The notes beneath the pieces are model-generated. The model ran no database searches. It saw nothing but the letters and a program-made list of their open reading frames with translations, and had not been told where the DNA came from. 64,000 bases of DNA from Quercus robur (Eukaryota; Streptophyta; Magnoliopsida; Fagales; Fagaceae): contig NC_065536.1 in assembly GCF_932294415.1 (NCBI RefSeq), positions 11,955,974-12,019,973 on the forward strand. The letters run 5' to 3'. Position 1 is the first letter of the stretch. The number at the start of each line of letters is the position of its first letter. Below, in pieces: positions 1,645-59,049 of this stretch. Both the position numbers and the translations under genes were made by a program.

Positions 1645-1654
1645 GTGGGGGGTA
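1645..1654 (+). repeat. Left 10-bp target-site duplication of the giant MULE
   Basis: GTGGGGGGTA is repeated exactly at 59040-59049. The two copies bracket terminal inverted repeats starting GAGGATTCTGG. Mutator-like elements make 8-11 bp duplications, commonly 9 or 10. Confidence 0.85.
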
Positions 1655-1895
1655 GAGGATTCTGGCCTTTTGCCCTTTCTGGGAAACATATTTGGCATAA
1701 TGCCCCTGTTTTGAAACTATATAGGGGCGTGCCCCTGTTTGGATACTCGATCTCCGTAAAGGCGAGTTACTTAAGTAACTCAATTATGAAGAAACCGAGT
1801 TGTGGGCAGGTTCTAGCCACGCTGGTGTTCCAGCGTGGCTTTTGGGGAATAAAATATTCCCGCGTTACTGTTTGGAACTCGTCAATGTGGAAAAT
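1655..1895 (+). repeat. Outer left terminal inverted repeat with promoter
   Basis: About 240 bp beginning GAGGATTCTGGCC, then CTTTTGCCCTTTCTGGG. It matches 58799-59039 inverted and 8427-8664 in direct orientation. From 1745 it carries ACTCG/CGAGT motifs, including an imperfect palindrome around TTACTTAAGTAA, and a TATA-like CTATATAGG near 1720. It doubles as the upstream region of the PMD gene copy, whose leader exon ends at 2219 before GTAATTTG. Confidence 0.85.
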
Positions 1896-2115
1896 GAGTT
1901 ATATGCGGAATATGAACCAGTTTTTAAATGTAACGTCTCTAAAACTGTTTGTCTTCCTTCCTCTGCAGTCTACAGTCTCTCTCCCTTCCTCAGTCCGATC
2001 AGTAGCCACCGCCAGTCTGTTCAGTAGCCATCGTCAGTAGCCACCGTCAGATTCTCCTGTTTCTACCCGCACCCAAACCAAACCGTTCAGTAGACCCTTT
2101 CCGAAGTTGAATCGA

Positions 2116-2146
2116 AACCCATACCCATACCCATACCCATACCCAC
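2116..2146. repeat. CCCATA microsatellite in the PMD leader exon
   Basis: Five or so tandem CCCATA units; the right arm has one more unit around 58545-58577. It lies in the untranslated leader exon of the PMD gene. The unit differs from the plant telomere repeat. Confidence 0.75.
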
Positions 2147-2219
2147 ACTTATTCAATCTCACCACAGCGGAGCTCAACCCAATCTGTCTTCGGAGTTAAA
2201 GGATTACAAACGTATTAAG

Positions 2220-4675
2220 GTAATTTGTAAATGCTGAGTTCAAATTTTAATTTTTTCCCTTTGCATGTAATCTGATTTGAGTGTGGCTTCCTAAGTTTTT
2301 CGCTGTTAGATTGTTGTCTATCTGTATTCATAATTATTGTTGCTGTTTTAGCTTTGTTGGGTTTGGTTTTGAAGTGGGTTTGGTTTTGAAGTGTTTTATA
2401 ACGCACATCTAGGGCAGAAATTCATGTAAAATACAGTTAGCATGACAACGGTGTTCATTGTTAGGGGAAATTGGTTTGTAATTCATATAGTTTGAAAGTG
2501 TATCAAATCAATCTCTATTTTTTCCAGAAATTATGTCACAAGTTATGTCATGATTTTGAATTAGGAAAAATTTCTTTTTAATTCAATGCTGAATGATGTT
2601 GAATTGAGAAGCTATTGGTTTTACAAGCTTCAAAGTTACTGGCTTTTACAAGCTTCCACTCTGTTTAGTTATTATTATAATAGATATAATGTGTGTATAA
2701 TGGATATGCATGCATATATCTACACACAGACCATGGACATCCTAAAACCTTAGCTGCCATTTACTCTGCTTACGGCTGTAACTGTGCCATATTGTTTTTA
2801 TTCAACATCAAAGTTTTGGTTTGTAATTTTTTTTTTTTCATGTCATTATCCTTGTAATATCATATGGGAACATATAAACTTACTTACCACATCAGTTGAA
2901 AGTCACTTACATTTTGTGTAAAGATGCATAATTGATTGTCTTAAGAGACTAGAATTGTCTTAGAAGTTTAAGTACTTTTATTTATTTATTTATTTTTTTT
3001 TGGTTATTAGTATTCCTAGCCTTTGTAAGAAAGGATTTAGAAGTAGCCTATATAATGAACATTCCAACTTTTTTCAATCGCAATTGCTATCTCGTACCTA
3101 AATGTGAGTGCTTAGGAAAGCCTACGTGTGATTGCCCAATGTTTTATCTTTGTTTATTTGATGTTCTTTTTATTGTTTAAATACCAAACAGTCATCAACA
3201 CAATCAATATGTTATCAAGAATCTAGTTTAGTGTTGAAATTCCTAAAAAGGCTACATCAAATTTGGTATTAAAGCCCGTTCAAGCTCTTGTCTTGTGTCA
3301 GATTAGCAGCTTCTGTGGGTTATGTTTGTTGACTAAGTACATCGAATTGTTATTATTATCATCTATTACATTTGGGGTTGAAAAGGGAAGTTAGTGGCCT
3401 TAGTGGCCTTTTAGGGTCACCCAATCCTTTCATAATAGGTTGGGTTAGGTTAGGGAGCATTGAGATTTGTGGTGGCTTTTGGGAATGGAAATAGTACATC
3501 CTCTAGGGTGCTTCTGACGGACCTAGGGCTTTGTTTATTTATTTATTTTTTTGGTGGTTTGACCTACTATACTTATTTCCCTAGGGTATTGATTTCCGTG
3601 TGTCGGAATTAATTTCTTGTTTCTGCAACACCTTCCTCCTCACAGTCACTTTTTGTTTCCAATAAAAATATAATTGACTTCTAAGAGAAAAAATAATCGA
3701 CTTCATAAAAACAAATGAAGGAAAAAAACCCAAAAGAGAAGAAAGCAAAGGTCTTGGACTGTTATGGTCACCAATTCAGTGTTCATTTGACACATAACTA
3801 TGCACACACCATCATTTGATGGTATAGGTCTCACAGTTGTTTAATCCATTTAATAAAGCTCAATATTAATTTGACTATTATTAGTTGCCTCCAAAGCTGT
3901 GCTTGTGAGTGAGATGTCCATTGCAGTAGAGTCTCTAATGGAACCTTTACCTATTTCCATGTTTGTCTCCCCCTTCTTTTGTTGAAAACACACCTCAGTA
4001 GCCACTAAGTTACAATGAACCCTTTTCAGTTCTTGCTTTATTAAATAAAATTTCTTTTAGAGTGTGATGTCAAGTACGGGAACAAGCAAAAGCAAAAGGA
4101 AGGAAGTTTACACTTCGATTAAAGAAGGGAAATTCTAGTACTGATGGGTGGCAGGGCTTGTTTAGGGGTAATTGGTAATTGGGTACCTTTTAATTTTAGA
4201 GCTATGTTTTAGTGTTCTAGAATGGTGTTTTTTGTGGTGCTTAATTGATTGTTTGGTTTGCATTATGCTTTGTTCATTTGTTGGTTTACTTTGTTTGATT
4301 TAGACATTGAATCTCAACTTGGTTGGTTGGTTAGGTTGCTTATACAATTTGCAACTATGTGTCTTTTATGTTTATGCCTTGCAGCCATGAACGTTAGGTT
4401 GTTTATATTTTAGTGTTTTACTTTAACTCTTCCTTGATATGATTAAATCGATTGAAAATTAGTGTATATAGATGCATGATGTATAATTCAGTTTAGCAAT
4501 TATATGTTTTCAATTTTCTGTGAAATCTCTCTTCCACTCTGTCTCTCTGTATTTGTTTCTGTGAGTTTGTTGTAGAACATTCAATTACTTGCCTGTGTTT
4601 ACTTGCAAAAGCCAAGCTTTTCTTCACTATTACTTGCCTGTGTTTACGTGTCTAACATGATTGCATGCGTGTCAG
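2220..4675 (+). other. Leader intron of the left PMD copy, no gene seen
   Basis: A GT donor follows the leader exon at 2220 and an AG acceptor (GTGTCAG) ends at 4675, 2 nt before the start codon. The interval is AT-rich with poly-T runs and no convincing coding. At 3575-3660 it retains the last codons of the WRKY ORF that is fuller in the right arm, in opposite orientation. The 1413-bp deletion point is 3660/3661. Confidence 0.6.
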
Positions 4676-4677
4676 AT

Positions 4678-6145
4678 ATGCAGCAAGTGGGAAATGTGGA
4701 TCCTGGACCGACGGTTGGTACACAGTTGACGCGGCAGCCGGTTCATCGATCCACGCTGCTTTGGGAGACGCCAGCCGGTCAGGTGTGTAGTTGTACTGAA
4801 CTTTGGACATGTCGAAATCATTTAATTTTATTTTTGTAGGGTTCTTTGATTCTTAGCAAATAGACGTTGGACATGGTAGAATGTTTTGGTTTACGCAGAA
4901 TTGTATTTAATCCAAAGAGAAAATGGCATGAAGCATAAATAATCAAGAACATTGTATGGAGCAGAAATGTTCAAAGTCAGTACATGTCATTTAGAAGCCA
5001 TAGTAATCAATAAAAAATTGAATCCTCTACTATTCTTTTTTCCAAACATGCACACACAATTACGCGTGGCTACACATAAGACAACTAACGACCTTGATTC
5101 CTAATTCCCTACTCCATTTGACATAGTGAGGCACTTTGTTCATTCATTTCAAAACATGATGGCCATCACCTTAGTGCTAATTTTAAACAATGTCATTGAT
5201 GTTGAAATTGATCCTATCTGCTATTGAGGTAGAGTGAATAAGCAATTAACATTGTAACTACGTTTTGCAAAATGTTCGGGATTAACTAGTTAGCCTACTG
5301 TTTCTTGCATATTATTATTATGTAGCATTGTTATAGTTATTTCGTGTGCACTATCCTAAGACAATGCTCTTTCGTGTGCAGGTAGTGCCAGGCGTCCTAA
5401 ACTGCAGACGCCGAAGTTGCAAGTTACCCGAGCATGGGCTTGACCCACGGATTGCTCGGTACATAACTGAGGCGGGTTTTGAAGGGTTATTCAAGGTCCC
5501 AAACTTGGAAGTGGATCATGCGTTGATCACAGCACTAGTTGAGCGTTGGCGTCCGGAGATGCACACATTCCACCTACCGCATGGAGAGATGAGCATCACC
5601 TTACAAGATATTGAGGTGATGCTAGGGGTTCCTGTTGATGGGTTGCCAATTACTGGGGCTGTGAAGATGGATTGGCCTACGTTGTGTCTTGAGTTATTGG
5701 GTCATCGTCCACCAGACCCGATACCGCATCCCCATGAGAACACCTCTATCCTTGCTGGGGCGAGGCTCAGATTCACGTGGCTGGATGCACTATTTAGTGG
5801 GCCCCTAGCTGCGGATGCTACTGATGAGGTAGTGCAGCAACATGCGCGCTATCACATACTCGATCGGTTGGGGACGATTTTGTGTATGGATAAGTCAGCA
5901 GACCGGGTGTCGGTGCTGCCTCTACAGTTCCTAAACCCAATCAGCAACGCGAAGAGGTACAGTTGGGGTAGTGGGGCATTAGCCTGGTTGTACAGGCACT
6001 TATGCAAGGCATCGGAGTCGAAGGCGAAGCAGATTGGTGGAGCAGTGATGTTGGTGCAGCTGTGGGCGTATTCGAGGTTCCCATTGATATGCCCTGTTAT
6101 GAGGTTGCCACTACCGCCAGTGGAGGCAGGTCCCCTTGCCAATCG
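4678..6145 (+). pseudogene. Truncated plant-mobile-domain (PMD) gene copy, exons 1-2
   Basis: Exon 1 (4678-4782, 35 codons) holds the family hallmark DPGP...LTRQ...HRS.LWE. Exon 2 (5382-6145) begins after GTGTGCAG and encodes the PMD core (LDPRIARYITEAGFEGLF, then DHALITALVERWRP, THTFHLPHGEM-like and TLQDIEVMLGVPV motifs), ending at donor GTATGT. I chose the start at 4678 because a splice acceptor lies 2 nt upstream; an in-frame ATG at 4657 would be in the intron. PMD proteins (MAIN/MAIL family) act in gene and TE silencing as host genes, and related TE-borne versions occur in MULEs and Ty3 elements. This copy has no stop in exon 2, unlike the right-arm copy, but exons 3-7 are missing because the arm ends at 8432. 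Confidence 0.85.
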
Positions 6146-6502
6146 GTATGTTATTTGAGTAGTTTGATACAATTGTCAAGTACTATTATTTTTTTTCAAT
6201 AAATGTTTGGTATGATTTGTGGTGCCTACGTATATTTGTAAGACTGTGTTGCTTCTATGATTAAAGCATGCTACTTTGCGAAAGACAAATTTCTTCACCT
6301 TATGTCAATCATTATATTTGCATTATTATTATTTTGGTTAGTCTGATTCCAATTTAAATTCCAATATCTTACTACGTTTAGTTAATATTAGAAATGCTAA
6401 AATGTATTGGCAATGCTAAAGCATAGTTGTTTTGGCCAATGTCCTTTTCTGCCTGGTAGTAGTTCTGAATTTGCAAGATAATTAGGGCCATAACCTAGCC
6501 AA

Positions 6503-6604
6503 GAGCCTTGTAGTTTAATTGGCACCTCCTAGTGTTTCCGACGTAGACATCCAGGGTTCAAATCCCCCACTCCAACTATGAAATTATCAAAAAATAAAAA
6601 ATAG
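6503..6604 (+). mobile_element. tRNA-derived SINE in the PMD intron (left arm)
   Basis: An A-box-like TAGTTTAATTGG and a B-box GGTTCAAATCC are followed by an A-rich tail. The insert is flanked by imperfect direct repeats AGGGCCATAAC(C/T)TA at about 6484-6497 and 6610-6623. The matching copy in the right arm is at 52661-52759, so it inserted before the arms were duplicated. Confidence 0.7.
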
Positions 6605-8426
6605 AATCAGGGCCATAACTTAACTTTACCCTATGCTTAACTATTTTTATATGGTAAGACGAATAAGTATATATTACATGTATATCACACCTCTAATACA
6701 GAAGAAGATAGAAGAGATTAAATCATATACTTTCAACAAATTCCTAAGTCAAGAATCTCTCTATGTCTAGATCTTTCTAATTTTTAGTAAAATAAGTGGT
6801 GGAAACCCATAATGATGGTTGGATATCATAGATAACCTTGGGTTTTCACTTCTCAGATGGTTTGGGTTTAATATTCCTCCTTCAAATTTCAATCTAATGT
6901 ATTTTTGATAATTGTGTTTAGAAATGAAGTATTGGTTTTTTGGTTTTCAAAAATCATTCATCATAGAATATACATAAATTGATATATGAGATGTACATGA
7001 GTCAAGAGCTCCTTGGCACTAATTGTAGGACTTGGCTAACCAATATGCATCACGGTGGGTTAGTAAGAGTTTAGAAATTAATTTAAATCCTCTTAGCATT
7101 TCCATCGATGATTGTTATTCTTGGAATTCCTTTATCTCAGTCTCTAGATTGGGTGGTAGAATATTTTTCTGCCGTATGTCATTGTTGTTTAGTCTAAAGG
7201 TTAAAGACCTCATGAATTATTTGGTATCACTTTTGATGTGTAGCATAAACATTTTATGTGGATTGGTAGTTGCATACATTGCCAAGTAAATGGTTATGAA
7301 GGTAATGGAAGTTTTGGTAACTTTGATTTTTTTTTTTTTTTTGGGTTGATGGTAACTTTGATATGTTAATGAAGCTATAGGCCTGTTTCAAATCAAAATT
7401 GCCTCTATTAGCTTAGGGACTGGCCTCTTGTCCTAAAAGGGTCCATGGTCATGAGATGCTTACTAATGCCATAGGTTCAATCTGCCTTTTGTAGCTTCTA
7501 ATGCAGCATTTGAGGAGACAACTGCAAATAGATTTTAAACTTTGGTAGAATGAATTCAGTCCAAATAAATTTTTTTGACTACATTCTTTTGAGAAATAAA
7601 TTTTAGTATCATGCTAAAACTCTTACTAGAAAGTAATTATACTAAATGAAATTATGTACGGTTATGTCATTGGAGAATTTATATTTTGTCAATAAATAAT
7701 ATAAAATAGTATTCAATGTGACAATTTCTCCAATTTCTCTATAATGATCCACAATTTCTATAATTGCTCTACTACCCGGTGAAGGACAAATACCAGACCA
7801 ACCCCAACCAAATTATCCAAATCCCAACTTTATCCACCACCGTGAACGACCCATATTCCCTAATCACAAGTTGGTTTTGTGATTGTGGGGTTCCATTGTC
7901 GAATCAAAATGTTACAAACGAAAAGGGTAAAGAAAATTCAAGAAATTGAAGATACATTCACATGGAGTTAGTCACCATTTCTATCTAGTTTCCAATATGC
8001 TGTCTTCTGTCCAAAGCTGAACCCATTGAGAATACAGTAAATCAAATAGGGCAGGGAGACAATAATTCCCAATCCTGCAATTGCCTAACATAGATAGGGT
8101 ACTAATGCACTACTTTACCCCTAACATCCAAATAATCACTAACCCTAGCATGTTTGTTAGCTGCAATTTGGAAAGGATCATAAACTAACGTAAACTAACC
8201 AATTAAAAGACTTGTTCCCACACCATGCATCAAGCCATATACCCTCACCATCATGCCATCCCCAATTTGAAATCTAATAAATTTATAGGACTCCCAAAAC
8301 CTGCTCTTATTCCTTTCCACAGTCCCACTCCGTGTGGAAATTCTACTCCGTCTATAGTCCACTGGGAATCTTGCTCATATTTAATTCTCAGAAGGCATCT
8401 CCACAATTGGTCATTTCCCTGAGTTC
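6605..8426. other. PMD intron remnant, no gene seen
   Basis: AT-rich sequence shared with the right arm to 8432. Short open frames at 7032-7289, 7764-7949 and 8225-8422 are mirrored in the right arm but lie in an intron, have no domain and no splice support. I read them as chance frames. The segment includes a poly-T run near 7328. Confidence 0.6.
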
Positions 8427-8664
8427 ATTCTGGTCCTTTGCCCTTTCTGGGAAACATATTTGGCATAATGCCCCTGTTTCGAAACTATATAGGGGCGTGC
8501 CCCTGTTTGGATACTCGATCTCCGTAACGGCGAGTTACTTAAGTAACTCGATTATGAAGAAACCGAGTTGTGGGCAGGTTCTTGCCACGTTGGTGTTCCA
8601 GCTTGGCTTTTGGGCAATAAAATATTCCAGCGTTACTGTTTGGAACTCGTCAATGCGGAAAACG
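8427..8664 (+). repeat. Inner copy of the MULE terminal repeat
   Basis: It is about 95% identical by eye to the outer terminal repeats (TTTGCCCTTTCTGGG, GGGGCGTGCCCC, the ACTCG palindrome TTACTTAAGTAA). It begins exactly where homology between the two arms stops. The junction shares ATTCTG with both the arm intron (GAGTTCATTCTG) and the terminal repeat (GAGGATTCTGG), a 6-bp microhomology. It is probably the original left end of a smaller element, 8427-59039. Confidence 0.85.
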
Positions 8665-8845
8665 AGTACTTAAAACCCGAATAACCGATAATCGAGTTAT
8701 TCGTTTTACTCGGTTCTCATATAACCGAGTTTTATGCTATTCTGACACCATTTCACATCAGTTGTTCACACGTGAAGCTGAACCCGATTAATAGGAAATC
8801 GAGTTATTAATAGTACTCGGTTCTTTTATAATCGAGTTCTTCTGC
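8505..8845 (+). promoter_or_regulatory. ACTCG/CGAGT array 2, upstream of the first coiled-coil gene
   Basis: I count about 12 copies of the 5-mer ACTCG or CGAGT in 335 bp, with near-palindromic pairs such as CGAGTTACTTAAGTAACTCG. A probable leader exon follows and ends at 8934 (TCAG before GTTTAC). Function as a regulatory or transposase-binding array is inferred. Confidence 0.6.
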
Positions 8846-10151: not shown

Positions 10152-10242
10152 TCATGTACCATCTTATGCAGCATTACATTATTTACCAACAATTGATGCA
10201 CACTATTAACTTGATCAGTTGATGTTATTGTATTCAGTGTCA

Positions 10243-10692
10243 ATGTCTGGTTCTGGCAACCCACAACTCTATAGGCCTCACGATGTGTTCACTGCTATGG
10301 GTCGTTGCTGGGTATTGGAAGATGAGTTTAGCTATCCAATCAATCCAAATCTGCGAAATAGTGCTTATGTTCACAATAGCATGAGACAGGAGTGGGATTG
10401 GTTATTTCGTGAACAACAAATGTTTTATGATGAGTTGACTGGTTTTAAGTTGCCAGTGCCTCGGCGACTTGCATCGCAGATGCCTAGAGACTCGATTAAC
10501 GAACTTCGTAAAGCATTGAACCGCATAAGAGAAGAAAATAATCGAATGAAGATACGTCTTAATCGATATCGGACCCAAGTCGAGATTCGAGAGTCAGTGG
10601 AGGGAGGGTGGTATGAGCACGCACAATTCATGCAATCACTTCTTGCTGATCCCATTTATCAGTCAGACGTGGAGATGTCAGATGAAGACTAA
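10243..10692 (+). CDS. Small acidic coiled-coil protein, MULE accessory paralogue 1
   Basis: 149 codons; the start follows a splice acceptor (ATTCAG at 10232-10237) by 5 nt, and two upstream ATGs lie in the intron. I do not recognise a named domain. The centre has W...L...Q..FYDELTGF.LPVPRR, then a helical L..AL.RI.EENNRM..RLNRYR stretch with coiled-coil character, and an acidic tail ending EMSDED. Two other ORFs nearby (minus strand, starts 11433 and 14071) share the W-x-L, G-x-x-VP/AP, PR and ENN-x-M landmarks. The array at 8505-8845 and a leader exon lie upstream. It could be an accessory transposition or anti-silencing protein like MURB or VANC, but that is only analogy. Confidence 0.7.
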   Translation: MSGSGNPQLYRPHDVFTAMGRCWVLEDEFSYPINPNLRNSAYVHNSMRQEWDWLFREQQMFYDELTGFKLPVPRRLASQMPRDSINELRKALNRIREENNRMKIRLNRYRTQVEIRESVEGGWYEHAQFMQSLLADPIYQSDVEMSDED

Positions 10693-11052: not shown

Positions 11053-11433
11053 TCACTCTGACAGGTAGTCCTCGTAGTTGAGGACATTGTTACGTTCCGT
11101 CGGAGTGAGTTGCCGGTTTGTGGCGGCGGCCAGCTCTTCTGCTAGCTGTAGCATGTGATACCTGGACCTACGCAGTATCATCAGATTATTCTCTTTTTTT
11201 ATTTTTGTCACTGCACGCTCATATTGATGCATATTTTGTCGTGATAGTGTGAGTGAGACACGATCAACAAGAGGCGCTCCGATTCGCACGAGATCATCGT
11301 GCAGAGCGTTGGACTCGTTCACACGAAAGTCCCACTCCCGCCGCAGTCCGGTATAGTATTCCCTCTCGTCGGAATCTCTCTCCCTCCTATAGTTATCTAG
11401 AAAACGAGGTAGCATCCAATTGCGCATTGACAT
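11053..11433 (-). CDS. Small coiled-coil protein, MULE accessory paralogue 2
   Basis: 126 codons, intact. It shares with its neighbour at 10243 the order REWDF...LHDDLVRIGAP, a spacer, then ERAVTKIKKENNLMILRRSRYH, and an acidic end (NYEDYLSE). A TATA-like element CTATATAAAG at 11501-11510 (minus strand) lies about 70 bp upstream of the start within a tandemly repeated block, so this one seems to be transcribed directly without a leader intron. It is convergent with paralogue 1 and 360 bp from it. Function unknown. Confidence 0.65.
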   Translation of the reverse strand: MSMRNWMLPRFLDNYRRERDSDEREYYTGLRREWDFRVNESNALHDDLVRIGAPLVDRVSLTLSRQNMHQYERAVTKIKKENNLMILRRSRYHMLQLAEELAAATNRQLTPTERNNVLNYEDYLSE

Positions 11434-11469
11434 TGGAAAATGTGACTTATGATCGGTATCTGTAGATGT

Positions 11470-11572
11470 TTTGCAAGGGTAGATGTAAATGGGAGTGGGA
11501 CTTTATATAGGAGTTTTGCAAGGGTAGATGTAAATGGGACTAGGACTTTATATAGGAGTTTTGCAAGGGTAA
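11470..11572 (-). promoter_or_regulatory. Repeated promoter block with two TATA boxes
   Basis: A 45-bp unit (TTTTGCAAGGGTAGATGTAAAT followed by ACTTTATATAGGAG, on the plus strand) occurs about 2.3 times at 11470, 11514 and 11559. Each full unit brings a TATA-like CTATATAAAG on the minus strand (11501-11510, 11546-11555), upstream of the minus-strand gene starting at 11433. Confidence 0.5.
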
Positions 11573-13513: not shown

Positions 13514-14071
13514 TTAACAACAACGTCTAATGTTCGTAGGTAGAAATTTCTGGAAGTCATCATTGCTTGAATCTGAGAAGTCTGAAATATCTCTTTCATC
13601 ATCTAACGCAGTAATTTCATTAATAGACTTCATGGCTCGCTCTTGCGCCTTCCCCTTTAGATGCTTCCTAGCTTTTTGGATTGCGTGAAAACGGTCTAGT
13701 CACCTTTGCATTTGATTGTTCTCTTGTTCAAGACGCGCAAGTATGTTGGCAGGTTCATCTCTAGGTAACTCGGCTGAGCGTGCCTTAGGAACTCGTAACC
13801 CGTGCCATCGACAATACACCTCCAACTCACACCTCTTCTCGTATAGGGTTGACCATGGTGGTTCTGCTACGGTGAACTCTATTGCGGTTGTATCTGTACT
13901 TAGTTTTGTGGGTTTGCCAACCATGATGTGTCCGACGCTTCCAATATACCAATGGTGGTCTGTGTATGTATGTAGTTGTTGATTTGCTGGAGCTTCTGAT
14001 GATCCATATGTTGAAGTAGATCCAAACTTGTTTCGCATTTTACGCTTTGACATTGAGACGCTGCGACTCAT
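13514..14071 (-). pseudogene. Accessory coiled-coil paralogue 3, one premature stop
   Basis: The frame runs 123 codons to a TGA at 13700-13702, then stays open for about 60 more codons to TAA at 13514. The stop falls in the paralogue landmark ENNQMQR-stop-LDRFHA, where the sister protein has Arg, so CGA to TGA is the simplest event. The N-terminal part has Lys/Arg and Ser/Thr-rich sequence; the middle has PPWSTLYEKRCELEVYCR and GLRVPKARS...LPRDEP; the tail is acidic (DDERDISDFSDSSNDD). It is the longest of the three paralogues (about 185 codons). Function unknown. Confidence 0.65.
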
Positions 14072-14687
14072 AGCTTACTCAATCTACGAATTTAGTGGGA
14101 GTAGAAAGAAAGTCATTATTGTGGTGCATTTATAACCTCATTTCATGGTTCAAGCATTACAATCAAAATTTAGTAGAGCTTGTCATGTTAATACAGGCTA
14201 GAAAAACACTGTATGAAGAGGGTCATAATTGTTACCATTGTCATGTGTCTAGATTCTTGTGGGGACGACACCAATTTAAATATGAAATTGGTGTCTAATT
14301 TTCCTCCATCTGTCTAAATTTAACTGGGATCAATTGTAATTACGCTACTATTATTGATAGAAGTTAGGTGAAAGTTAGCTGTGCTCCTTTTTTATTTATT
14401 TTTTTTCCCCCACACCCGCGTATTTTCAGGTTCACCTCTCCTTCTACAATAATCAAAACCCAAGATTGTTTCTCTCCTACTCAACTAACGGTGCATGGTC
14501 GCAGTTACCACACTGATTACGCCACCTTAACATACAGCTCCCCTATTTTTCAATGAATGCTATTTATGTATCTTATATAGGAAGAGGTTCTCCATCTATT
14601 CCGATTTTACTTTTCTTTACAACTTTAATGGTCCTTGTTTATGCTCTGCAAAACCAATTCCAACCATTCCTAAGGTTTGATTACTCA
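14072..14687. other. Non-coding, includes the first unit of a tandem repeat
   Basis: Short open frames only. From about 14620 it carries GGTCCTTGTTTATGC...CTAAGGTTTGATTACTCA, which recurs at 18470-18505 and 18645-18705. The Helitron is inserted inside this unit. Confidence 0.5.
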
Positions 14688-22431: not shown

Positions 22432-23479
22432 AACTAGGATGTACAAGTGGGAATGAAAGCACAACAGAAAACCAATATTTAGAACTGCGTTAGAGACACA
22501 TAAACACAATGTACATATGCATGACAAAAAGACTGCATGATATTGATGCACAATAAGCGTCAATGAATGAATGCATTGAAATGAAAAATTTTCTGTATGT
22601 ACATGAACATTGACCCATACAGTCAAGTTATTTGAGAACCATGCAAACCCACAGTGTACATGGTGCAACGGGAGTAAAACCAGTCACTACCATCCATCAA
22701 TGTCTTACCATGTGGTCAATTTCAGGCAATTATACCCAATTCAACAAAACCCCAAATTCCACGAAGAACAAGATTGGCGAATGAACCAACATGCATACCA
22801 AGATGTGAAAATTTTGAATATAAACGATAGAGAACATCTCGCCAACATGCATACACAGCAACCCATGAACCAGTTCAGATCAAATGAAGCAATACATGTG
22901 AAAATCCCGAAATTCCCAATATGAAGACATGAACTCTAATTTTTCATTTCTCACAAATCATGCGTTCTTTACAATTAAAGGGTATAAAACGTGTGTACAA
23001 CATCCATACAAAAAAACCCATTACCTATTTCATGTCAAAACACCAACACCCATGAAAATCCCCAAATTCCATATTAACACATGAACCCTAAATTGAATGG
23101 GCTTGTAGAAGTCAGCTATGTTTATGTAATTAAAGGCTACAAATCGTATGAACAACATGCATATGTAAAAACCCATGACCCATTTCAGACCACAACACCC
23201 AAAATCATGAAAATCCCCACACTTGCATAGTTCGAAATTTCAGCTTTCACAGGGAGATTAATGCAGGATTTGAAATTAATTTCAATGGGAAGCAAGGGTA
23301 AAAGAGTCATACTACAGTTGAGGATCGATGTTTGGAACCCGGGAAGTCGCTTACGAGCTTGAGGAATCGAGAGCAATCGACTGCTGCTACTTTGGGAGTC
23401 CAGTGCATCCACACAACATCAGCTATGCTTTTTTTTCTTTTTATGAAACAACAGTTAACACTGAACTATGTAAATGAGG
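22432..23479 (-). other. Leader intron and upstream region of the 22431 gene
   Basis: Repeats of AAAATCCC(C/G)AAATTCC with ACATGAAC and AACATGCATA occur at about 22740-23230, an imperfect tandem of about 70-100 bp. GC-richer sequence at 23290-23410 could be the leader exon. No coding. Confidence 0.4.
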
Positions 23480-25242: not shown

Positions 25243-25529
25243 CTATGATGCAGCTCCACCGCTAGTTGACTCCGCATTTCGAGTAGGACATGTTCTACGG
25301 TTGTGCCCCTCTTGGCGACACAACCCACATCTTGACTTGGGTCCATTCTCGATCCATAGGGAGGTCGGCAACTCCCTATCATTCTCGTCCATCTTATTGC
25401 GGATTCGTGTGGACTTTGGCCGACCTTTGTTCCGGATCAGGTGCGGATTGGGCATCACTACTCTAGTTTCTTCCGGATCCGGCCATGCTAATCTGTCTTT
25501 CAACAGTTGGAATACCGGTTCATAGCTAT
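25243..25529 (-). pseudogene. C-terminal piece of the MURA-like transposase (zinc knuckle)
   Basis: About 94 codons: SYEPVFQLLKDR.AWPDP, KGRPKSTRIRNKMDE, then a CCHC knuckle CGLCRQEGHNRRTCP, ending TSGGAAS and a stop. This is the usual tail of plant MuDR-type transposases. It is separated from the catalytic part (32891-34926) by a copia element inserted at 25529/25530. The SWIM finger expected between the two parts is in neither piece. Confidence 0.85.
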
Positions 25530-26638: not shown

Positions 26639-26652
26639 ATCTCCCCCTTTGG
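26639..26652 (-). other. Polypurine tract of the copia element
   Basis: Minus strand CCAAAGGGGGAGAT directly before the 3' LTR start TGTAAGG. A second CCCCCT-type tract lies at 27365-27395, a common duplication in this lineage. Confidence 0.8.
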
Positions 26653-32629: not shown

Positions 32630-32631
32630 AG

Positions 32632-39064: not shown

Positions 39065-40015
39065 CTAAGAGACTGGATTAGAAGAGCTGTCTTCCTTGTG
39101 CTCATCGTTATTGATCTCCATGCTCTTTTTATCTTCACTGACCTCTTCCAATTGTGGCTGTACAAGGTCTACATCAAATGAATTGAATGAAACATTAAAA
39201 ACGTATAAACGATATAAATCTGAAATTTAAAATGTGTGCGTAATGAAGCAATGTAAGCAATGAATCAATTAAACAAATAAGTCATTTGCATAGTAGTAAG
39301 AAAAAAAATGACTGGTAAATTTTTTGTAGTGTCTACTGTCTGCCAACAAAATCCAAAAACGATTCTAAAAAATATGCATGAATATAATTTGTATTACATT
39401 GGTATCAACCATACCATCATGCATAATTTTTCATCAGATTATTCCATTTAAATTCTCGCCAAGATTGTGCACATTCTATATGTTCTATTTTCATAACTCA
39501 AATCCTCCGTCCATATAGCAACTTCAATGCCATTTCAACTTTTCTCTACACCACCTCATCATTAATATTTAAAGACATTTTTGTACTTTATGGGAAATCC
39601 AGAACCTTTTGGACATATATATTATTATTTTTTTTTAAATCATAAACTTATAACTTTGGATAGCCAACATATAAATAAAAAATGCATTACCTGTAGAAAT
39701 AGGAATGCTCAATGGCACTTCCAATTTCTTTCGACATAACTCCGAATGGCGCTTCAAATTATACTGAACAAATGCTCCGTCAGCAATAAATTTCTTTCCA
39801 CACTGCTTACATTTGCATGAAGGCCGTTCTTTGCCTTTTGTCGGAAGCATCTCAAAGTCACGCCAAACAGCTGAAGTCCTCCTCTTGTAGACTTTGAGGT
39901 CAGTCTTTGCCTTCTTTGGCTCGGGAAGGTCAGACACTTCATTAAATTGGGCATCTAAGTCAGGCTGTTTTCCTTTTTTCTTCATGTCAGTGCAAATCAT
40001 CTGATCACTTTCCAT
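39065..40015 (-). CDS. BED-zinc-finger-only protein of the MULE
   Basis: Two exons, 39691-40015 and 39065-39168, join in phase (ACAG/GTAATG donor, GATGTAG acceptor) to give 142 codons. The ATG at 40015 directly follows TTGGTCTAG, a leader-intron acceptor; a leader exon ends at 40943 before GTATGT. Residues about 49-95 form a BED finger: SAVWRDFEML, CKCKQCGKKF, and NLKRHSELC with the paired Cys and His ligands. Acidic and Lys-rich flanks surround it and the tail is EEVSEDKKSMEINNDE. BED fingers bind DNA and usually head hAT transposases, but no hAT catalytic region follows, so this is a stand-alone DNA-binding protein. Array 5 lies upstream. Confidence 0.75.
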
Positions 40016-49986: not shown

Positions 49987-52900
49987 CTAGTAAACATATA
50001 ATTTCAAACAATGCTCATTAGTTATCATGCAAATAATAGATTCCAAATAATTATCATGCAAATATTCATGCCACTGTAGTACATTTTCAGTGTACTTGGG
50101 TTGCCTATTCTTTAATAAAAAGTTCTAAAGTTATATATCAAAAAAATAAAAAATAAAAAATATCATGCTAAATTTGGAACTTTTCTTCTCTAGAATGAAA
50201 GACAGAAAAAGAGTGGCTCCTTTATTACTACAAGCATTCTTAATATCTTTTTTTTTTTTTCAATCTTGGATTCCCATTGGGTGTACCTATAACTTACCAG
50301 TTTAAAAAAATAAAAATAAAAACAAGTCAAAATCAATGAGGGACTTATTGTTTTGTAAGAAAGACTTATTGAAAGTCCCAGATTGAAATGAAAGGGGATA
50401 CTATACTTCCTCCTCAATAAATACCTCTCCATCAAGAATTTCAAACATGAATACATTGTTTAGTTTTTGCAAGGGCCTGACATTCTTTAGTTTTTAATGT
50501 TGGGCTAGCTTATGTGTAAACCTAACATATAAGGGTTATTTATATATATATATATATTAGATTGTTACTTATCAAAAAAATAATATACAAGGTTTTCTTT
50601 TGTAAGAGAATAAAAAAATTTAGTAATTAAAAAAGGGGCCAAAACTAATCAAACTGCTCAAAACCAGGAAGCGGTTTGACTGGTTTTGAGCCCTTCCAAT
50701 TTTTTCCTGGTTTTTTAATGTGGACCATACCAATCTAGGTCCCAGTTCACTGGTCTGTAGTCCACTGGCCGCTCTGGTCTGCTTTAAAAATTTAAGCTCC
50801 TTCAACTTTGCATTGTTGGATAAGTGAATCAGAATGAACTCAGGGAAATGACCAATTGTGGAGATGCCTTCTGAGAAATAAATATGAGCAAGATTCCCAG
50901 TGGACTATAGACGGAGTAGAATTTCCACACGGAGTGGGACTGTGGAAAGGAATAAGAGCAGGTTTTGGGAGTCCTATAAATTTATTAGATTTCAAATTGG
51001 GGATGGCATGATGGTGAGGGTATATGGCTTGATGCATGGTGTGGGAACAAGTCTTTTAATTGGTTAGTTTACGTTAGTTTATGATCCTTTCCAAATTGCA
51101 GCTAACAAACATGCTAGGGTTAGTGATTATTTGGATGTTAGGGGTAAAGTAGTGCATTAGTACCCTATCTATGTTAGGCAATTGCAGGATTGGGAATTAT
51201 TGTCTCCCTGCCCTGTTTGATTTACTGTATTCTCAATGGGTTCAGCTTTGGACAGAAGACAGCATATTGGAAACTAGATAGAAATGGTGACTAACTCCAT
51301 GTGAATGTATCTTCAATTTCTTGAATTTTCTTTACCCTTTTCGTTTGTAACATTTTGATTCGACAATGGAACCCCACAATCACAAAACCAACTTGTGATT
51401 AGGGAATATGGGTCGTTCACGGTGGTGGATAAAGTTGGGATTTGGATAATTTGGTTGGGGTTGGTCTGGTATTTGTCCTTCACCGGGTAGTAGAGCAATT
51501 ATAGAAATTGTGGATCATTATAGAGAAATTGGAGAAATTGTCACATTGAATACTATTTTATATTATTTATTGACAAAATATAAATTCTCCAATGACATAA
51601 CCGTACATAATTTCATTTAGTATAATTACTTTCTAGTAAGAGTTTTAGCATGATACCAAAATTTATTTCTCAAAAGAATGTAGTCAAAAAAATTTATTTG
51701 GACTGAATTCATTCTACCAAAGTTTAAAATCTATTTGCAGTTGTCTCCTCAAATGCTGCATTAGAAGCTACAAAAGGCAGATTGAACCTATGGCATTAGT
51801 AAGCATCTCATGACCATGGACCCTTTTAGGACAAGAGGCCAGTCCCTAAGCTAATAGAGGCAATTTTGATTTGAAACAGGCCTATAGCTTCATTAACATA
51901 TCAAAGTTACCATCAACCCAAAAAAAAAAAAAAAATCAAAGTTACCAGAACTTCCATTACCTTCATAACCATTTACTTGGCAATGTATGCAACTACCAAT
52001 CCACATAAAATGTTTATGCTACACATCAAAAGTGATACCAAATAATTCATGAGGTCTTTAACCTTTAGACTAAACAACAATGACATACGGCAGAAAAATA
52101 TTCTACCACCCAATCTAGAGACTAAGATAAAGGAATTCCAAGAATAACAATCATTGATGGAAATGCTAAGAGGATTTAGATTAATTTCTAAGCTCTTACT
52201 AACCCACCGTGATGCATATTGGTTAGCCAAGTCCTACAATTAGTGCCAAGGAGCTCTTGACTCATGTACATCTCATATATCAATTTATGTATATTCTATG
52301 ATGAATGATTTTTGAAAACCAAAAAACCAATACTTCATTTCTAAACACAATTATCAAAAATACATTAGATTGAAATTTGAAGGAGGAATATTAAACCCAA
52401 ACCATCTAAGAAGTGAAAACCCAAGGTTATCTATGATATCCAACCATCATTATGGGTTTCCACCACTTATTTTACTAAAAATTAGAAAGATCTAGACATA
52501 GAGAGATTCTTGACTTAGGGATTTGTTGAAAGTATATGATTTAATCTCTTCTATCTTCTTCTGTATTAGAGGTGTGATATACATGTAATATATACTTATT
52601 CGTCTTACCATATAAAAATAGTTAAGCATAGGGTAAAGTTAAGTTATGGCCCTGATTCTATTTTTTATTTTTTGATAATTTCATAGTTGGAGTGGGGGAT
52701 TTGAACCCTGGATGTCTACGTCGGAAACACTAGGAGGTGCCAATTAAACTACAAGGCTCTTGGCTAGGTTATGGCCCTAATTATCTTGCAAATTCAGAAC
52801 TACTACCAGGCAGAAAAGGACATTGGCCAAAACAACTATGCTTTAGCATTGCCAATACATTTTAGCATTTCTAATATTAACTAAATGTAGTAAGATATTG

Positions 52901-53116
52901 GAATTTAAATTGGAATCAGACTAACCAAAATAATAATAATGCAAATATAATGATTGACATAAGGTGAAGAAATTTGTCTTTCGCAAAGTAGCATGCTTTA
53001 ATCATAGAAGCAACACAGTCTTACAAATATACGTAGGCACCACAAATCATACCAAACATTTATTGAAAAAAAATAATAGTACTTGACAATTGTATCAAAC
53101 TACTCAAATAACATAC
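49987..53116 (-). other. PMD intron 2, crossing the inner edge of the right arm
   Basis: Homology to the left arm runs from 50830 to the right; the part 49987-50829 is unique. It carries the right-arm SINE at 52661-52759. The sequence 50636-50780 has repeated CAAAACCAGG/GGTTTTG words, perhaps another small repeat. Open frames at 50840-51037, 51313-51498 and 51973-52230 mirror intron frames of the left arm. Confidence 0.6.
52661..52759 (-). mobile_element. tRNA-derived SINE in the PMD intron (right arm)
   Basis: Counterpart of 6503-6604 with A-box and B-box on the minus strand (GGTTCAAATCCCCCA). Confidence 0.7.
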
Positions 53117-54585
53117 CGATTGGCAAGGGGACCTGCCTCCACTGGCGGTAGTGGCAACCTCATAACAGGGCATATCAATGGGAACCTCGAATACGCTCAC
53201 AGCTGCACCAACATCACTGCTCCACCAATCTGCTTCGCCTTCGACTCCGATGCCTTGCATAAGTGCCTGTACAACCAGGCTAATGCCCCACTACCCCAAC
53301 TGTACCTCTTCGCGTTGCTGATTGGGTTTAGAAACTGTAGAGGCAGCACCGACACCCGGTCTGCTGACTTATCCATACACAAAATCGTCCCCAAACGATC
53401 GAGTATGTGATAGCGCGCATGTTGCTGCACTACCTCATCAGTAGCATCCGCAGCTAGGGGCCCACTAAATAGTGCATCCAGCCACGTGAATCTGAGCCTC
53501 ACCCCAGCAAGGATAGAGGTGTTCTCATGGGGATACGGTATCGGGTCTGGTGGACGATGACCCAATAACTCAAGACACAACGTAGGCTAATCCATCTTCA
53601 CAGCCCCAGTAATTGGCAACCCATCAACAGGAACCCCTAGCATCACCTCAATATCTTGTAAGGTGATGCTCATCTCTCCATGCGGTAGGTGGAATGTGTG
53701 CGTCTCCGGACGCCAACGCTCAACTAGTGCTGTGATCAACGCATGATCCACTTCCAAGTTTGGGACCTTGAATAACCCTTCAAAACCCGCCTCAGTTATG
53801 TACCGAGCAATCCGTGGGTCAAGCCCATGCTCGGGTAACTTGCAACTTCGGCGTCTGCAGTTTAGCACGCCTGGCACTACCTGCACACGAAAGAGCATTG
53901 TCTTAGGATAGTGCACACGAAATAACTATAACAATGCTACATAATAATAATATGCAAGAAACAGTAGGCTAATTAGTTAGTCCCGAACATTTTGCAAAAC
54001 GTTAGTTACAATGTTAATTGCTTATTCGCTCTACCTCAATAGCAGATAGGATCAAATTCAACATCAATGACATTGTTTAAAATTAGCACTAAGGTGATGG
54101 CCATCATGTTTTGAAATGAATGAACAAAGTGCCTCACTATGTCAAATGGAGTAGGGAATTAGGAATCAAGGTCATTAGTTGTCTTATGTGTAGCCACGCG
54201 TAATTGTGTGTGCATGTTTGGAAAAAAGAATAGTAGCGGATTCAATTTTTTATTGATTACTATAGCTTCTAAATGACATGTACTGACTTTGAACATTTCT
54301 GCTCCATACAATGTTCTTGATTATTTATGCTTCATGCCATTTTCTCTTTGGATTAAATACAATTCTGCGTAAACCAAAACATTCTACCATGTCCAACGTC
54401 TATTTGCTAAGAATCAAAGAACCCTACAAAAATAAAATTAAATGATTTCGACATGTCCAAAGTTCAGTACAACTACACACCTGACCGGCTGGCGTCTCCC
54501 AAAGCAGCGTGGATCGATGAACCGGCTGCCGCGTCAACTGTGTACCAACCGTCGGTCCAGGATCCACATTTCCCACTTGCTGCAT

Positions 54586-56701
54586 ATCTGACACGCATGC
54601 AATCATGTTAGACACGTAAACACAGGCAAGTAAACACAGGCAAGTAATAGTGAAGAAAAGCTTGGCTTTTGCGAGTAAACACGGGCAAGTAATTGAATGT
54701 TCTACAACAAACTCACAGAAACAAATACAGAGAGACAGAGTGGAAGAGAGATTTCACAGAAAATTGAAAACATATAATTGCTAAACTGAATTATACATCA
54801 TGCATCTATATACATTGATTTTCAATCGATTTAATCATATCAAGGAAGAGTTAAAGTAAAACACTAAAATATAAACAACCTAACGTTCATGGCTGCAAGG
54901 CATAAACATAAAAGACACATAGTTGCAAATTGTATAAGCAACCTAACCAACCAACCAAGTTGAGATTCAATGTCTAAATCAAACAAAGTAAACCAACAAA
55001 TGAACAAAGCATAATGCAAACCAAACAATCAATTAAGCACCACAAAAAACACCATTCTAGAACACTAAAACATAGCTCTAAAATTAAAAGGTACCCAATT
55101 ACCAATTACCCCTAAACAAGCCCTGCCACCCATCAGTACTAGAATTTCCCTTCTTTAATCGAAGTGTAAACTTCCTTCCTTTTGCTTTTGCTTGTTCCCG
55201 TACTTGACATCACACTCTAAAAGAAATTTTATTTAATAAAGCAAGAACTGAAAAGGGTTCATTGTAACTTAGTGGCTACTGAGGTGTGTTTTCAACAAAA
55301 AAAAGGGGGAGACAAACATGGAAATAGGTAAAGGTTCCATTAGAGACTCTACTGCAATGGACATCTCACTCACAAGCACAGCTTTGGAGGCAACTAATAA
55401 TAGTCAAATTAATATTGAGCTTTATTAAATGGATTAAACAACTGTGAGACCTATACCATCAAATGATGGTGTGTGCATAGTTATGTGTCAAATGAACACT
55501 GAATTGGTGACCATAGCAGTCCAAGACCTTTGCTTTCTTCTCTTTTGGGTTTTTTTCCTTCATTTGTTTTTATGAAGTCGATTATTTTTTCTCTTAGAAG
55601 TCAATTATATTTTTATTGGTCAAGTCTTGGTCGTAAATTAGGTTATTAGTAATTCATTTCTTTTCTTCAAATCAAGCAGATTTTTTAAAATCAATAGTTG
55701 GCTTTCCTAAGTCAACTAGAAATAGGGTCAAGGTAGTTAAAGGTGAAAGGCAACCTTAAGGTGCCAAGGCCTTATATGGCCCGATGCCCTAAGGTGTGAG
55801 GCGACAAGGCCTTTGGTGCAGCCAAGGCCAGCCCATTCCAGAAGAACTAGAATTTACCAAATTGTCTTCATTCTGGGAGAACTTAATTAAAAGCAATCCA
55901 ACAGTGAAAAACAAAAACAAACAATCAAATAAGTGTCAAGTCAATTCAACTTTAGATCGACCAACGAAGGTCCCAAGATAACTCTTCATCATCTAAAATT
56001 CCCAAATTAAAAGGTCTTTAAAGAAAACTGCAATCAAATAACAGTACATTCAAGTTTAGACTAAGGAAGGTCCCGATAGAACTCTTCATCATCTGAAACA
56101 TCCCAATAGACTAAGCCAATTACATTCCCATCACTGACTCGTACGTTTTTAATTTTTTATCATTTTTCATCTTTGACTGTTCTCATCTAATTCACCCATG
56201 GTAATGCCTTCTAATTGTTTAATCAATAGCCTCACTAAGTGGTTAAAAAAGAGCTCTCAATCTTGTGCTGTTACAAAAGACTTAACAACTAACTAGTTAA
56301 AAAAAGGAAATTCAGCAACCTGTTACAAAAACTACAAAGCAGCATTTCACATTTACAAGCTTAGATGCTCCTGCATCAAAAACTGCTATCGATTTTATTG
56401 CAAAATGTTTACAGTTTACAAACAGACATGGAAATTTGTGACTCAGCTGGTTATGTGGGGTCACATGTCAAGTGTGATGCACGTGTGCCACTTTTTTGTT
56501 AATATAACACCAACACAGACAGCAGGACATTGTAGCAAGGTTATAAAATTGGGGAGTCATTAATGAATTTCGAAAGCATGGAGGACATTGTAATCAGAGT
56601 AAAAGTTTAGGATCGAACAGTGTAATTTATCCTAACAAAAAATTTTCTTTTCACAGCTACTCAGTCCCTACACTAGCATCAATTATCAAAGATTTTCCAG
56701 G
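54586..56701. other. PMD leader intron, right arm, left of the WRKY segment
   Basis: 54586-55614 matches the left arm. From 55615 it is unique to this arm. The part 55740-55830 holds a repeat-like block (AAGGCCTTATATGGC, GGCGACAAGGCC) common in plant repeats. The frame 55796-55981 is not convincing. Confidence 0.45.
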
Positions 56702-57082
56702 ATGGAATCATCAAAGGCATCTCATTCTGATAAGAAATACCAGGATAGTGAGCCTACCATTGTTGTTGCTAATCCTTTCAATTCCGATGATGGGTACAGA
56801 TGGCGTAAATACGGGCAGAAGGTGGTTAAGGGCAATGAATATCCACGAAGCTACTACAAATGTACATGTGTGGGTTGTAATGTCAGAAAATGGGTTGAGC
56901 AATCTCCTGCCAGAGAAATGCCTAAAATTAAGTACGAAGGCAAACATAATCATGAAATGCCTAACAAGCTTGCAAAAGAAATTAGTGATTCGCAATATCT
57001 GGCCGGAAATATGAACATTCTAAGTCAATTGGAAACAAAAAGTGACTGTGAGGAGGAAGGTGTTGCAGAAACAAGAAATTAA
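56702..57082 (+). pseudogene. Captured WRKY transcription factor domain
   Basis: 126 codons with an intact WRKY domain: [16 protein letters not shown], then [13 protein letters not shown] and a zinc ligand set C-x4-C-x22-H-x-H closing with [10 protein letters not shown]. This resembles group I WRKY proteins. The start is preceded by TTTTCCAG, a splice acceptor, so an upstream exon is missing. The conserved intron that usually follows the PR of this domain is absent. It is antisense to PMD within the leader intron. In the left arm all but the last 14 or so codons are deleted. It would bind W-boxes if made, but its transcription is uncertain. Confidence 0.8.
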
Positions 57083-58468
57083 TTCCGACACACGGAAATC
57101 AATACCCTAGGGAAATAAGTATAGTAGGCCAAACCACCAAAAAAATAAATAAATAAACAAAGCCCTAGGTCCGTCAGAAGCACCCTAGAGGATGTACTAT
57201 TTCCATTCCCAAAAGCCACCACAAATCTCAATGCTCCCTAACCTAACCCAACCTATTATGAAAGGATTGGGTGACCCTAAAAGGCCACTAAGGCCACTAA
57301 CTTCCCTTTTCAACCCCAAATGTAATAGATGATAATAATAACAATTCGATGTACTTAGTCAACAAACATAACCCACAGAAGCTGCTAATCTGACACAAGA
57401 CAAGAGCTTGAACGGGCTTTAATACCAAATTTGATGTAGCCTTTTTAGGAATTTCAACACTAAACTAGATTCTTGATAACATATTGATTGTGTTGATGAC
57501 TGTTTGGTATTTAAACAATAAAAAGAACATCAAATAAACAAAGATAAAACATTGGGCAATCACACGTAGGCTTTCCTAAGCACTCACATTTAGGTACGAG
57601 ATAGCAATTGCGATTGAAAAAAGTTGGAATGTTCATTATATAGGCTACTTCTAAATCCTTTCTTACAAAGGCTAGGAATACTAATAACCAAAAAAATAAA
57701 AAAGATAAAAAAGTACTTAAACTTCTAAGACAATTCTAGTCTCTTAAGACAATCAATTATGCATCTGTACACAAAATGTAAGTGACTTTCAACTGATGTG
57801 GTAAGTAAGTTTATATGTTCCCATATGATATTACAAGGATAATGACATGAAAAAAAAAAAATTACAAACCAAAACTTAGATGTTGAATAAAAACAATATG
57901 GCACAGTTACAGCCGTAAGCAGAGTAAATGGCAGCTAAGGTTTTAGGATGTCCATGGTCTGTGTGTAGATATATGCGTGCATATCCATTATACACACATT
58001 ATATCTATTATAATAATAACTAAACAGAGTGGAAGCTTGTAAAAGCCAGTAACTTTGAAGCTTGTAAAACCAATAGCTTCTTAATTCAACATCATTCAGC
58101 ATTGAATTAAAAAGAAATTTTCCCTAATTCAAAATCATGACATAACTTGTGACATAATTTCTGGAAAAAATAGAGATTGATTTGATACACTTTCAAACTA
58201 TATGAATTACAAACCAATTTCCCCTAACAATGAACACCGTTGTCATGCTAACTGTATTTTACATGAATTTCTGCCCTAGATGTGCGTCATAAAACACTTC
58301 AAAACCAAACCCACTTCAAAACCAAACCCAACAAAGCTAAAACAGCAACAATAATTATGAATACAGATAGACAACAATCTAACAGCGAAAAACTTAGGAA
58401 GCCACACTCAAATCAGATTACATGCAAAGGGAAAAATTAAAATTTGAACTCAGCATTTACAAATTACC
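57083..58468 (-). other. PMD leader intron and leader exon, right arm
   Basis: Inverse of 2219-3575. The GT donor of the leader exon is at 58466-58467. No other coding; the leader exon with the TATGGG microsatellite extends right to the terminal repeat. Confidence 0.55.
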
Positions 58469-58542
58469 TTAATACGTTTGTAATCCTTTAACTCCGAAGA
58501 CAGATTGGGTTGAGCTTCGGCTGTGGTGAGATTGAATAAGTG

Positions 58543-58577
<35 letters not shown>

Positions 58578-58798
58578 TTCGATTCAACTTCGGAAAGGGT
58601 CTACTGAACGGTTTGGTTTGGGTGCGGGTAGAAACAGGAGAATCTGACAGTGGCTACTGACGGTGGCTACTGAACAGACTGGCGGTGGCTACTGATCGGA
58701 CTGAGGAAGGGAGAGAGACTGTAAACTGCAGAGGAAGGAAGACAAACAGTTTTAGAGACGTTACATTTAAAAACTGGTTCATATTTCGCATATAACTC

Positions 58799-59039
58799 GT
58801 TTTCCACATTGACGAGTTCCAAACAGTAACGCGGGAATATTTTATTCCCCAAAAGCCACGCTGGAACACCAGCGTGGCAAGAACCTGCCCACAACTTGGT
58901 TTCTTCATAATCGAGTTACTTAAGTAACTCGCCTTTACGGAGATCGAGTATCCAAACAGGGGCACGCCCCTATATAGTTTCAAAACAGGGGCATTATGCC
59001 AAATATGTTTCCCAGAAAGGGCAAAAGGCCAGAATCCTC
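58799..59039 (-). repeat. Outer right terminal inverted repeat
   Basis: Inverse of 1655-1895, ending GGCCAGAATCCTC. It has five ACTCG/CGAGT motifs, including the palindromic pair around TTACTTAAGTAA, and is the upstream region of the full PMD gene. Confidence 0.85.
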
Positions 59040-59049
59040 GTGGGGGGTA
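59040..59049 (+). repeat. Right 10-bp target-site duplication
   Basis: GTGGGGGGTA, identical to 1645-1654. Confidence 0.85.

Follow-up and report, generated by a model that had tools for sequence, protein, structure and literature searches.

Is a 57.4-kb interval of the Quercus robur genome, bounded by a perfect 10-bp repeat and by inverted arms several kilobases long, a single transposon and, if so, of what kind? Plant cut-and-paste DNA transposons are generally thought to be small. The interval lies in a stretch of 64,000 nucleotides (NCBI RefSeq assembly GCF_932294415.1, contig NC_065536.1, positions 11,955,974 to 12,019,973; hereafter, the window), and a prediction made from the letters alone had described it as a Mutator-like element (MULE) that inserted as one unit, with the arms as its ends and at least eight genes inside. 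We put a probability of about 0.87 on the reading that the interval is an aberrant member, no longer autonomous, of a giant MULE lineage in Quercus robur, in which accessory genes are common to two families. The unit itself is a MULE, and the lineage, giant and multi-gene, has probably multiplied recently.

Between the two copies of the target site duplication (TSD) lie 57,385 bp (1655-59039), with the same inverted sequence at both termini. The duplicated sequence, GTGGGGGGTA, occurs exactly twice in the window, each time adjoining an inverted end (coordinates of all features are given in Table 1), and its reverse complement does not occur there, so the predicted perfect duplication stands. 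The further claim that excision restores a continuous short interspersed nuclear element (SINE) was followed up in the window's own genome (785.7 Mb in 42 contigs), which was searched with a 64-nt join of the two flanks. Among the best 40 of 1,359 candidates, 39 cross the insertion point unbroken, at 89-97% identity, and the remaining one is the window's own right flank. Thus, the unit interrupts a dispersed SINE-like repeat. Here, as in most genome searches below, only the best candidates were scored, so that each count is a minimum and may include too few small derivatives.

The same ends recur across the genome, in what we denote family A. With the 245-bp right terminus as the query, the best 40 of 580 candidates were scored and gave 40 hits, 38 of which form 19 inward-facing pairs (paired by eye); the other two are a terminal inverted repeat (TIR) in the interior of the window unit and one end without a partner. 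Of the 19 TSDs, 15 are exact (10/10) and in place, the window included, two are exact with one extra base (E1 and E5) and two match at 9 of 10 positions (E3 and E12), whereas 342 combinations of the same flanks that are not partners reach 7/10 at most, which places the duplications beyond chance. Family A units range from 10,787 to 78,223 bp (median 41,927 bp, later insertions included), and 17 of the 19 exceed 20 kb.

Six family A interiors were read whole (the window unit, E1, E2, E3, E4 and E6). E1 (41,927 bp), E2 (42,008 bp) and E6 (40,235 bp) are colinear with positions 8427-59039 of the window minus a nested retrotransposon of about 7.4 kb, and lack the left arm; they are 95-99% identical to the window unit in aligned blocks longer than 1 kb and 88-90% identical in a short repeat-rich stretch, with insertions or deletions of up to about 4 kb. 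Internal deletions account for the smaller E3 (13.6 kb) and E4 (10.8 kb). In all five relatives the TIR measures 245 bp, with asymmetric short and long ends, and because their short end corresponds to the inner TIR of the window unit (8427), positions 8427-59039 are the original unit. The normal family A unit is 40-42 kb long, with TIRs of about 245 bp. The largest member (78,223 bp; C3:16926808-17005030) has an exact 10-bp TSD, and its left end diverges from those of the other members beyond about 1.2 kb. A family A end at C38:33347754 has no listed partner; a copy of one accessory gene, RH1N, lies 29 kb inside it, and it probably marks another giant.

The assignment to the Mutator-like elements is upheld by a MURA-like transposase gene, now broken in the window copy, between outermost ends with the perfect 10-bp TSD. 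In E2, the predicted protein matches the Pfam domains MULE, DBD_Tnp_Mut and SWIM (PF10551, E = 2.3e-20; PF03108, E = 3.2e-8; SWIM, E = 5.1e-6), and a C-terminal CCHC knuckle is recognizable by eye. The same combination of a MURA-like transposase with PF03108, PF10551 and SWIM, TIRs (about 145-245 bp here) and a 10-bp TSD is that of plant Mutator/MuDR-type coding MULEs. The TSD falls within the 8-11 bp, and the TIRs, which in MULEs often measure hundreds of base pairs (245 bp in family A and about 145 bp in the unit of a second family that was read), within the 14-500 bp, given for MULEs by Dupeyron et al. 2019 (PMC6446971). When the E2 transposase was used as the query (52 of 1,692 candidates scored), the frame proved stop-free over 868 of 868 amino acids at 99% identity or more in E2, E14, E15 and E16, all of which are 40.5-42.0 kb long.

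In the window copy the transposase retains residues 1-674, with one stop, and is truncated because a long terminal repeat (LTR) retrotransposon, accounting for some 7.4 kb of the 57.4-kb unit, has replaced about 299 bp of the gene. This insertion broke the transposase, and the window copy is not autonomous now. Among the transposase relatives listed (120 of 149), the best matches are from Fagaceae, namely, Quercus lobata (66% identity across the whole protein), Q. suber (87% across 58% of the length), Lithocarpus (85% across 50%) and Castanea (73% across 80%), with Arachis, Camellia, sunflower and others lower. In some gene models of Lithocarpus and Quercus suber (P0060, P0117 and P0036), PMD or B3 is fused with MULE transposase or SWIM domains, perhaps through annotation that runs across one giant element.

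The multi-kilobase arms, which the original prediction took for the ends of the element, are not the terminal repeats of the family. They align in two inverted blocks, 1655-3663 with 59039-57028 (98.5% identity over 2,016 bp) and 3659-8432 with 55619-50830 (99.0% over 4,790 bp); the predicted size of about 6.8 kb is correct, but the arms are interrupted and not identical, and the right arm contains about 1.4 kb (a segment with a WRKY domain) that is missing from the left. By its variant sites, the left arm was copied from the right end of the window unit itself and fused to the original short end. The outer left TIR has the states of the window's long end at bases 14, 106, 181, 207 and 234, unlike the inner short TIR; at base 143 the two window arms also differ from each other. 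In the large block (4,746 sites, compared with E1, E2 and E6), four sites are exclusive to the two arms and no site splits them except private changes (15 in the left arm and 17 in the right since the copying); in the small block (1,961 sites, compared with eight other copies), four sites are again exclusive to the arms, one conflicting site groups the right arm with E6, and the private changes number 11 and 3, respectively. A tree of the large block, to which E3 was added, joins the arms with 96/90 support, and the same fork is not resolved in the small block. Among the copies compared, a donor other than the window unit is unsupported, given eight arm-only sites, a single conflict and no site that links the left arm to one other copy. 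A second element nested at the left is ruled out, as the inner TIR has neither a TSD nor its first four bases and the left arm has no short-end TIR of its own.

Two short homologies mark the junctions, ATTCTG (6 bp, 8427-8432) where the left arm meets the inner TIR, and CCAAT (5 bp) where the 1.4 kb is skipped inside the arm. We infer that template switching, during repair or replication at the short end, copied the element's own long end onto it through these microhomologies, creating the 6.8-kb arms. The enlarged 57.4-kb unit would then most likely have moved as one piece, as the perfect TSD borders the outermost ends and the long-end states reach outward to base 14 at least. In this respect the prediction that the whole unit inserted as one transposon describes the likelier order of events, with the amendment that the arms are secondary. 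Its rival, which we consider unlikely but the most serious competitor, is that an element of about 50 kb inserted first and gained the left arm in place, when a break at the short end was repaired on the long-end template, so that the 57.4-kb form never moved. Gain in place would fit the loss of only four bases from the inner TIR and both microhomology joins, as expected of template switching, and among the 40 best TIR matches an extra TIR is present in the window copy only. Base 161 of the outer left end, which has the state found in two of five short ends and in none of five long ends, also speaks for this order and against ours. The five long-end states listed above would, however, require that the switch occurred within about the first 13 bases beside the TSD or was hidden by conversion.

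The architecture of the window unit resembles the type 3 multiple-TIR MULEs described in the accessible part of PMC3310237, which have one extra solo TIR at one end and a TSD at the outer ends only, and are almost always single-copy. Its TIRs lie at 1655, 8427 and 59039; the inner one is preceded by arm sequence and has no TSD. In those elements the addition is described as a TIR, whereas here the duplication covers a 6.8-kb end, and its two microhomology junctions suggest a mechanism. That study (Ferguson and Jiang 2012; PMC3310237) leaves the mechanism open, and the window copy clearly illustrates how microhomology may lead to duplication of a TIR end.

Large size is not peculiar to the window copy but normal in two families, which number dozens of copies. 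Among the 52 transposase matches scored, 32 further copies are 61-68% identical to that of E2, and 22 of the 32 are stop-free; they define a sister family, B. Its reading covers one unit on contig C38 in full and 19 kb of a unit on C2. The former is 31,869 bp long, has TIRs of about 145 bp (86% identity) and is flanked by an exact TSD, CATTTTATAG. Across the 19 kb that could be set side by side, the two copies show 99.6-99.8% identity, which suggests that family B has recently multiplied. Searches with the family B ends (best 40 of 1,529 candidates on the left and of 1,085 on the right, paired by script) yielded 39 end pairs with a median length of 31,864 bp, of which 22 fall within 31-33 kb and 35 exceed 20 kb; one end on each side remains unpaired. 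Together, families A and B comprise at least 58 end pairs (19 + 39), 52 of them longer than 20 kb, or about 2.0 Mb of one oak genome.

The forecast of at least eight genes was roughly right, although the set is mixed, consisting of conserved genes of the element, a WRKY fragment and the nested LTR retrotransposon. E2 and the C38 unit have the same gene order: CC1 (+), CC2 (-), CC3 (-), T32 (-), transposase (-), RH1N (+) and PMD exons 3-2-1 (-). Besides the transposase, both families thus have four accessory systems, the CC paralogues, T32, RH1N and the multi-exon PMD gene. CC1-3 are related to one another (E = 5e-8 and 7.5e-6; 25% and 14% identity to CC3), with a motif ENNxM..R..R and 11 invariant columns in a three-way alignment. 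Pfam at curated cut-offs gave no match for them, and a CC3 profile search of solved structures gave one weak match (E = 0.04). In a protein collection CC3 has 242 homologues; of the 120 listed, apart from one Lithocarpus protein, almost every one is an ENA entry whose contig spans a few kilobases.

Right of the CC module, blastn between the families aligns 4,418 of 6,273 gene bases as opposed to 149 of 29,734 non-gene bases; PMD exon 3 does not align as DNA and was matched as protein (49.6% identity). For the nine coding segments, the ratio of nonsynonymous to synonymous substitution rates (dN/dS; NG86) between E2 and the C38 unit spans 0.13-0.42: 0.17, 0.13 and 0.28 for CC1-3, 0.42 for T32, 0.18 for the transposase, 0.28 for RH1N and 0.34, 0.15 and 0.22 for PMD. 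From these comparisons we conclude that the gene set predates the divergence of the two families and was preserved by selection, with the DNA alignment pattern as stronger evidence than dN/dS. At dS 0.18 (CC1), 0.42 (CC2) and 0.12 (CC3), the CC genes are less diverged than the remaining ones (0.71-1.9), and 3,587 bases within the first 6,000 of E2 align between the families; because of these two observations, the CC end module was probably exchanged between the families after the split.

Could the additional genes be passive cargo, as in Pack-MULEs, with only the transposase mattering? We consider this improbable. Such a view would accommodate the WRKY segment, the CC1 and transposase frames that are broken in some copies, and a 126-amino-acid frame that has no Pfam match and no match in the family B unit read. 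The WRKY domain (56636-57079, E = 5.9e-23) belongs to a segment present, at 92-100% identity, in 18 of the 19 paired family A elements, E19 being the exception (24 candidates, all scored); a second copy, 71-72% similar, lies beside the first in seven elements, and beyond the paired elements no match exceeds 76% (C2:79879937). The segment is probably captured host DNA, a feature that family A would share with Pack-MULEs. Weak ATP-synt_A and Fumarate_red_C matches (E about 3e-4), considered as a possible mitochondrial capture, are probably due to chance. Against the cargo view stand CC1-3, T32, RH1N and the PMD exons, which keep the same order and dN/dS of 0.13-0.42 in both families while the intergenic DNA hardly aligns. 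Pack-MULEs, moreover, lack a transposase and carry gene fragments, whereas the oak units encode a transposase, open in four family A copies, together with common genes; the Pack-MULEs of Jiang 2004 measure up to 7 kb, as summarized in the available part of a review (PMC6431247).

That the giant pairs are segmental duplications, or chance pairings of independent small elements with captured interior sequence, is very improbable: sizes do vary from 10.8 to 78.2 kb and the window copy has a nested insertion, but all 19 family A pairs face inward, with TSDs of a quality that the 342 control combinations do not reach, the three large relatives are colinear with the window unit, and more than half of the family B pairs (22 of 39) cluster within 31-33 kb. 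The reading of the window unit as a foldback-type element with the long arms as functional ends, suggested by inverted arms at 98.5-99.0% identity, is ruled out for practical purposes, as none of the five relatives read whole (E1, E2, E3, E4 and E6) has the arms.

Several observations weigh against our reading of a self-mobile giant lineage with selected genes. All the evidence comes from a single genome, and that for the empty site consists of other copies of the repeat in place of a true orthologous empty site. The sizes include nested insertions, and most interiors, such as that of the 78-kb E9, lie beyond the six units read. In family B, TSDs were read in four of the 39 pairs, the others being paired by position; three are exact, and one agrees at 6/10 in fixed register and, by eye, at 8/9 after a shift. 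Among the 20 transposases closest to that of E2, 16 (at 81-98% identity, the window included) have one to eight stops, and accessory genes are likewise broken in some copies, with one stop in CC1 in each of E1 and E6 and CC3 damaged in the window. The dN/dS comparison used one copy per family and the simple NG86 method, and is not a clean test; seven other frames gave values of 0.23-1.80, and six of these share sequence with the listed genes, either on the opposite strand or in a different frame. Low dN/dS alone proves little, because the values of overlapping frames may be by-products of the neighbouring coding frame.

Under our reading of a giant MULE lineage, transposase from intact copies would bind the short TIRs and move the entire 32-42 kb unit by the MULE route, with a 10-bp duplication; mobility would be of the cut-and-paste kind, effected by the MURA-like enzyme, and the accessory proteins may enable transposition or counter silencing. 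A broader proposal, to which we give somewhat less than even odds, is that Fagaceae host self-sufficient giant MULEs of 32-42 kb, in which a long-lived toolkit of CC1-3, T32, RH1N and PMD enables movement or anti-silencing of such large units, the CC module undergoes phage-like exchange, and the lineage is still moving. Extra genes beside the transposase are also found in VANDAL/Hiun elements with VANB and VANC; an anti-silencing role of VANC is reported in the sections available of PMC6446971 and PMC13317346. PMD domains occur with several plant MULE groups, according to the accessible text of PMC6446971 and PMC5418596, and in the latter Ikeda et al. raise the possibility that PMD proteins carried by MULEs counter silencing.

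The oak units differ from known plant coding MULEs in their size of 32-42 kb and common multi-gene set, compared with 2-10 kb for more than 95% of candidate coding MULEs in maize and rice (PMC3903597, available text). In extending over tens of kilobases with many genes they resemble giant eukaryotic DNA transposons such as Maverick/Polinton and Teratorn, as described in the part of PMC6431247 at hand, but the mobility enzyme of the oak units is MURA-like. Pfam gave no match to polymerase B or a retroviral-type integrase among 177 distinct open reading frames (ORFs) of the window element, all of 55 amino acids or more and lying largely outside the right arm and 25532-34959. According to the available portion of that review (PMC6431247), which does not mention a giant MULE, transposition becomes less effective once the cargo exceeds about 6 kb; a literature search of open-access text turned up no title or abstract that deals with giant MULEs or with MULEs of oak, which is weak evidence of absence. 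These families make it directly testable how large a unit MULE transposition can handle and what extra MULE genes do, and some T32, PMD and WRKY 'genes' annotated in oak assemblies may be transposon genes.

Table 1 Features of the window unit and its borders (window coordinates).
Feature	Position	Strand	Remarks
TSD, left copy	1645..1654	.	GTGGGGGGTA
Outer left TIR	1655..1899	+	245 bp; mostly of long-end type; copied from the element's own right end
Extra left arm	1655..8426	+	secondary copy of right end, without the ~1.4-kb WRKY segment
PMD, first coding segment, left-arm copy	5337..6155	+	273-aa (amino acid) open frame
Original short-end TIR	8427..8667	+	first 4 bases lost
CC1	10210..10689	+	conserved gene, one of three paralogues; open in window
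CC2	11056..11502	-	second paralogue; open
CC3	13517..14074	-	third paralogue; damaged in window; 205 aa open in E2, E1, E6 and the family B unit read
T32	21253..22683	-	PF20167 (Transposase_32) domain; 477-aa open frame
Transposase gene, 3' end	25246..25533	-	cut off by retrotransposon
Nested LTR retrotransposon	25533..32889	-	LTRs 98.05% identical
MURA-like transposase gene	32889..34959	-	PF03108, PF10551; truncated, one stop; open over 868 aa in E2, E14, E15, E16
RH1N	36579..37013	+	145-aa open frame; RNase H1 N-terminal/Cauli_VI domain (PF01693)
126-aa open frame	39638..40015	-	BED-type-finger-like by eye
PMD, third coding segment	44267..44763	-	
PMD, second coding segment	48810..49253	-	PF10536 positions 238-346
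Right arm	50830..59039	-	original long end of the element
PMD, first coding segment, right-arm copy	53107..53925	-	split by stop
WRKY domain segment	56547..57107	+	corresponds to E2 frame
Right (long-end) TIR	58795..59039	-	245 bp
TSD, right copy	59040..59049	.	GTGGGGGGTA

The two large ORFs of the nested LTR element encode a copia-type gag (660 amino acids) and a Transposase_32 protein (386 amino acids); the scan for a reverse transcriptase covered these two ORFs, not the smaller ones, and found none. The PF20167 domain is thus present both in the MULE's own T32 gene and in the LTR element (27462-28619), hinting at exchange between unrelated transposons. Two further features of the core of the window unit vary among copies, an imperfect palindrome of about 400 bp (44977-45381) and a tandem repeat of about 210 bp (41294-41950).

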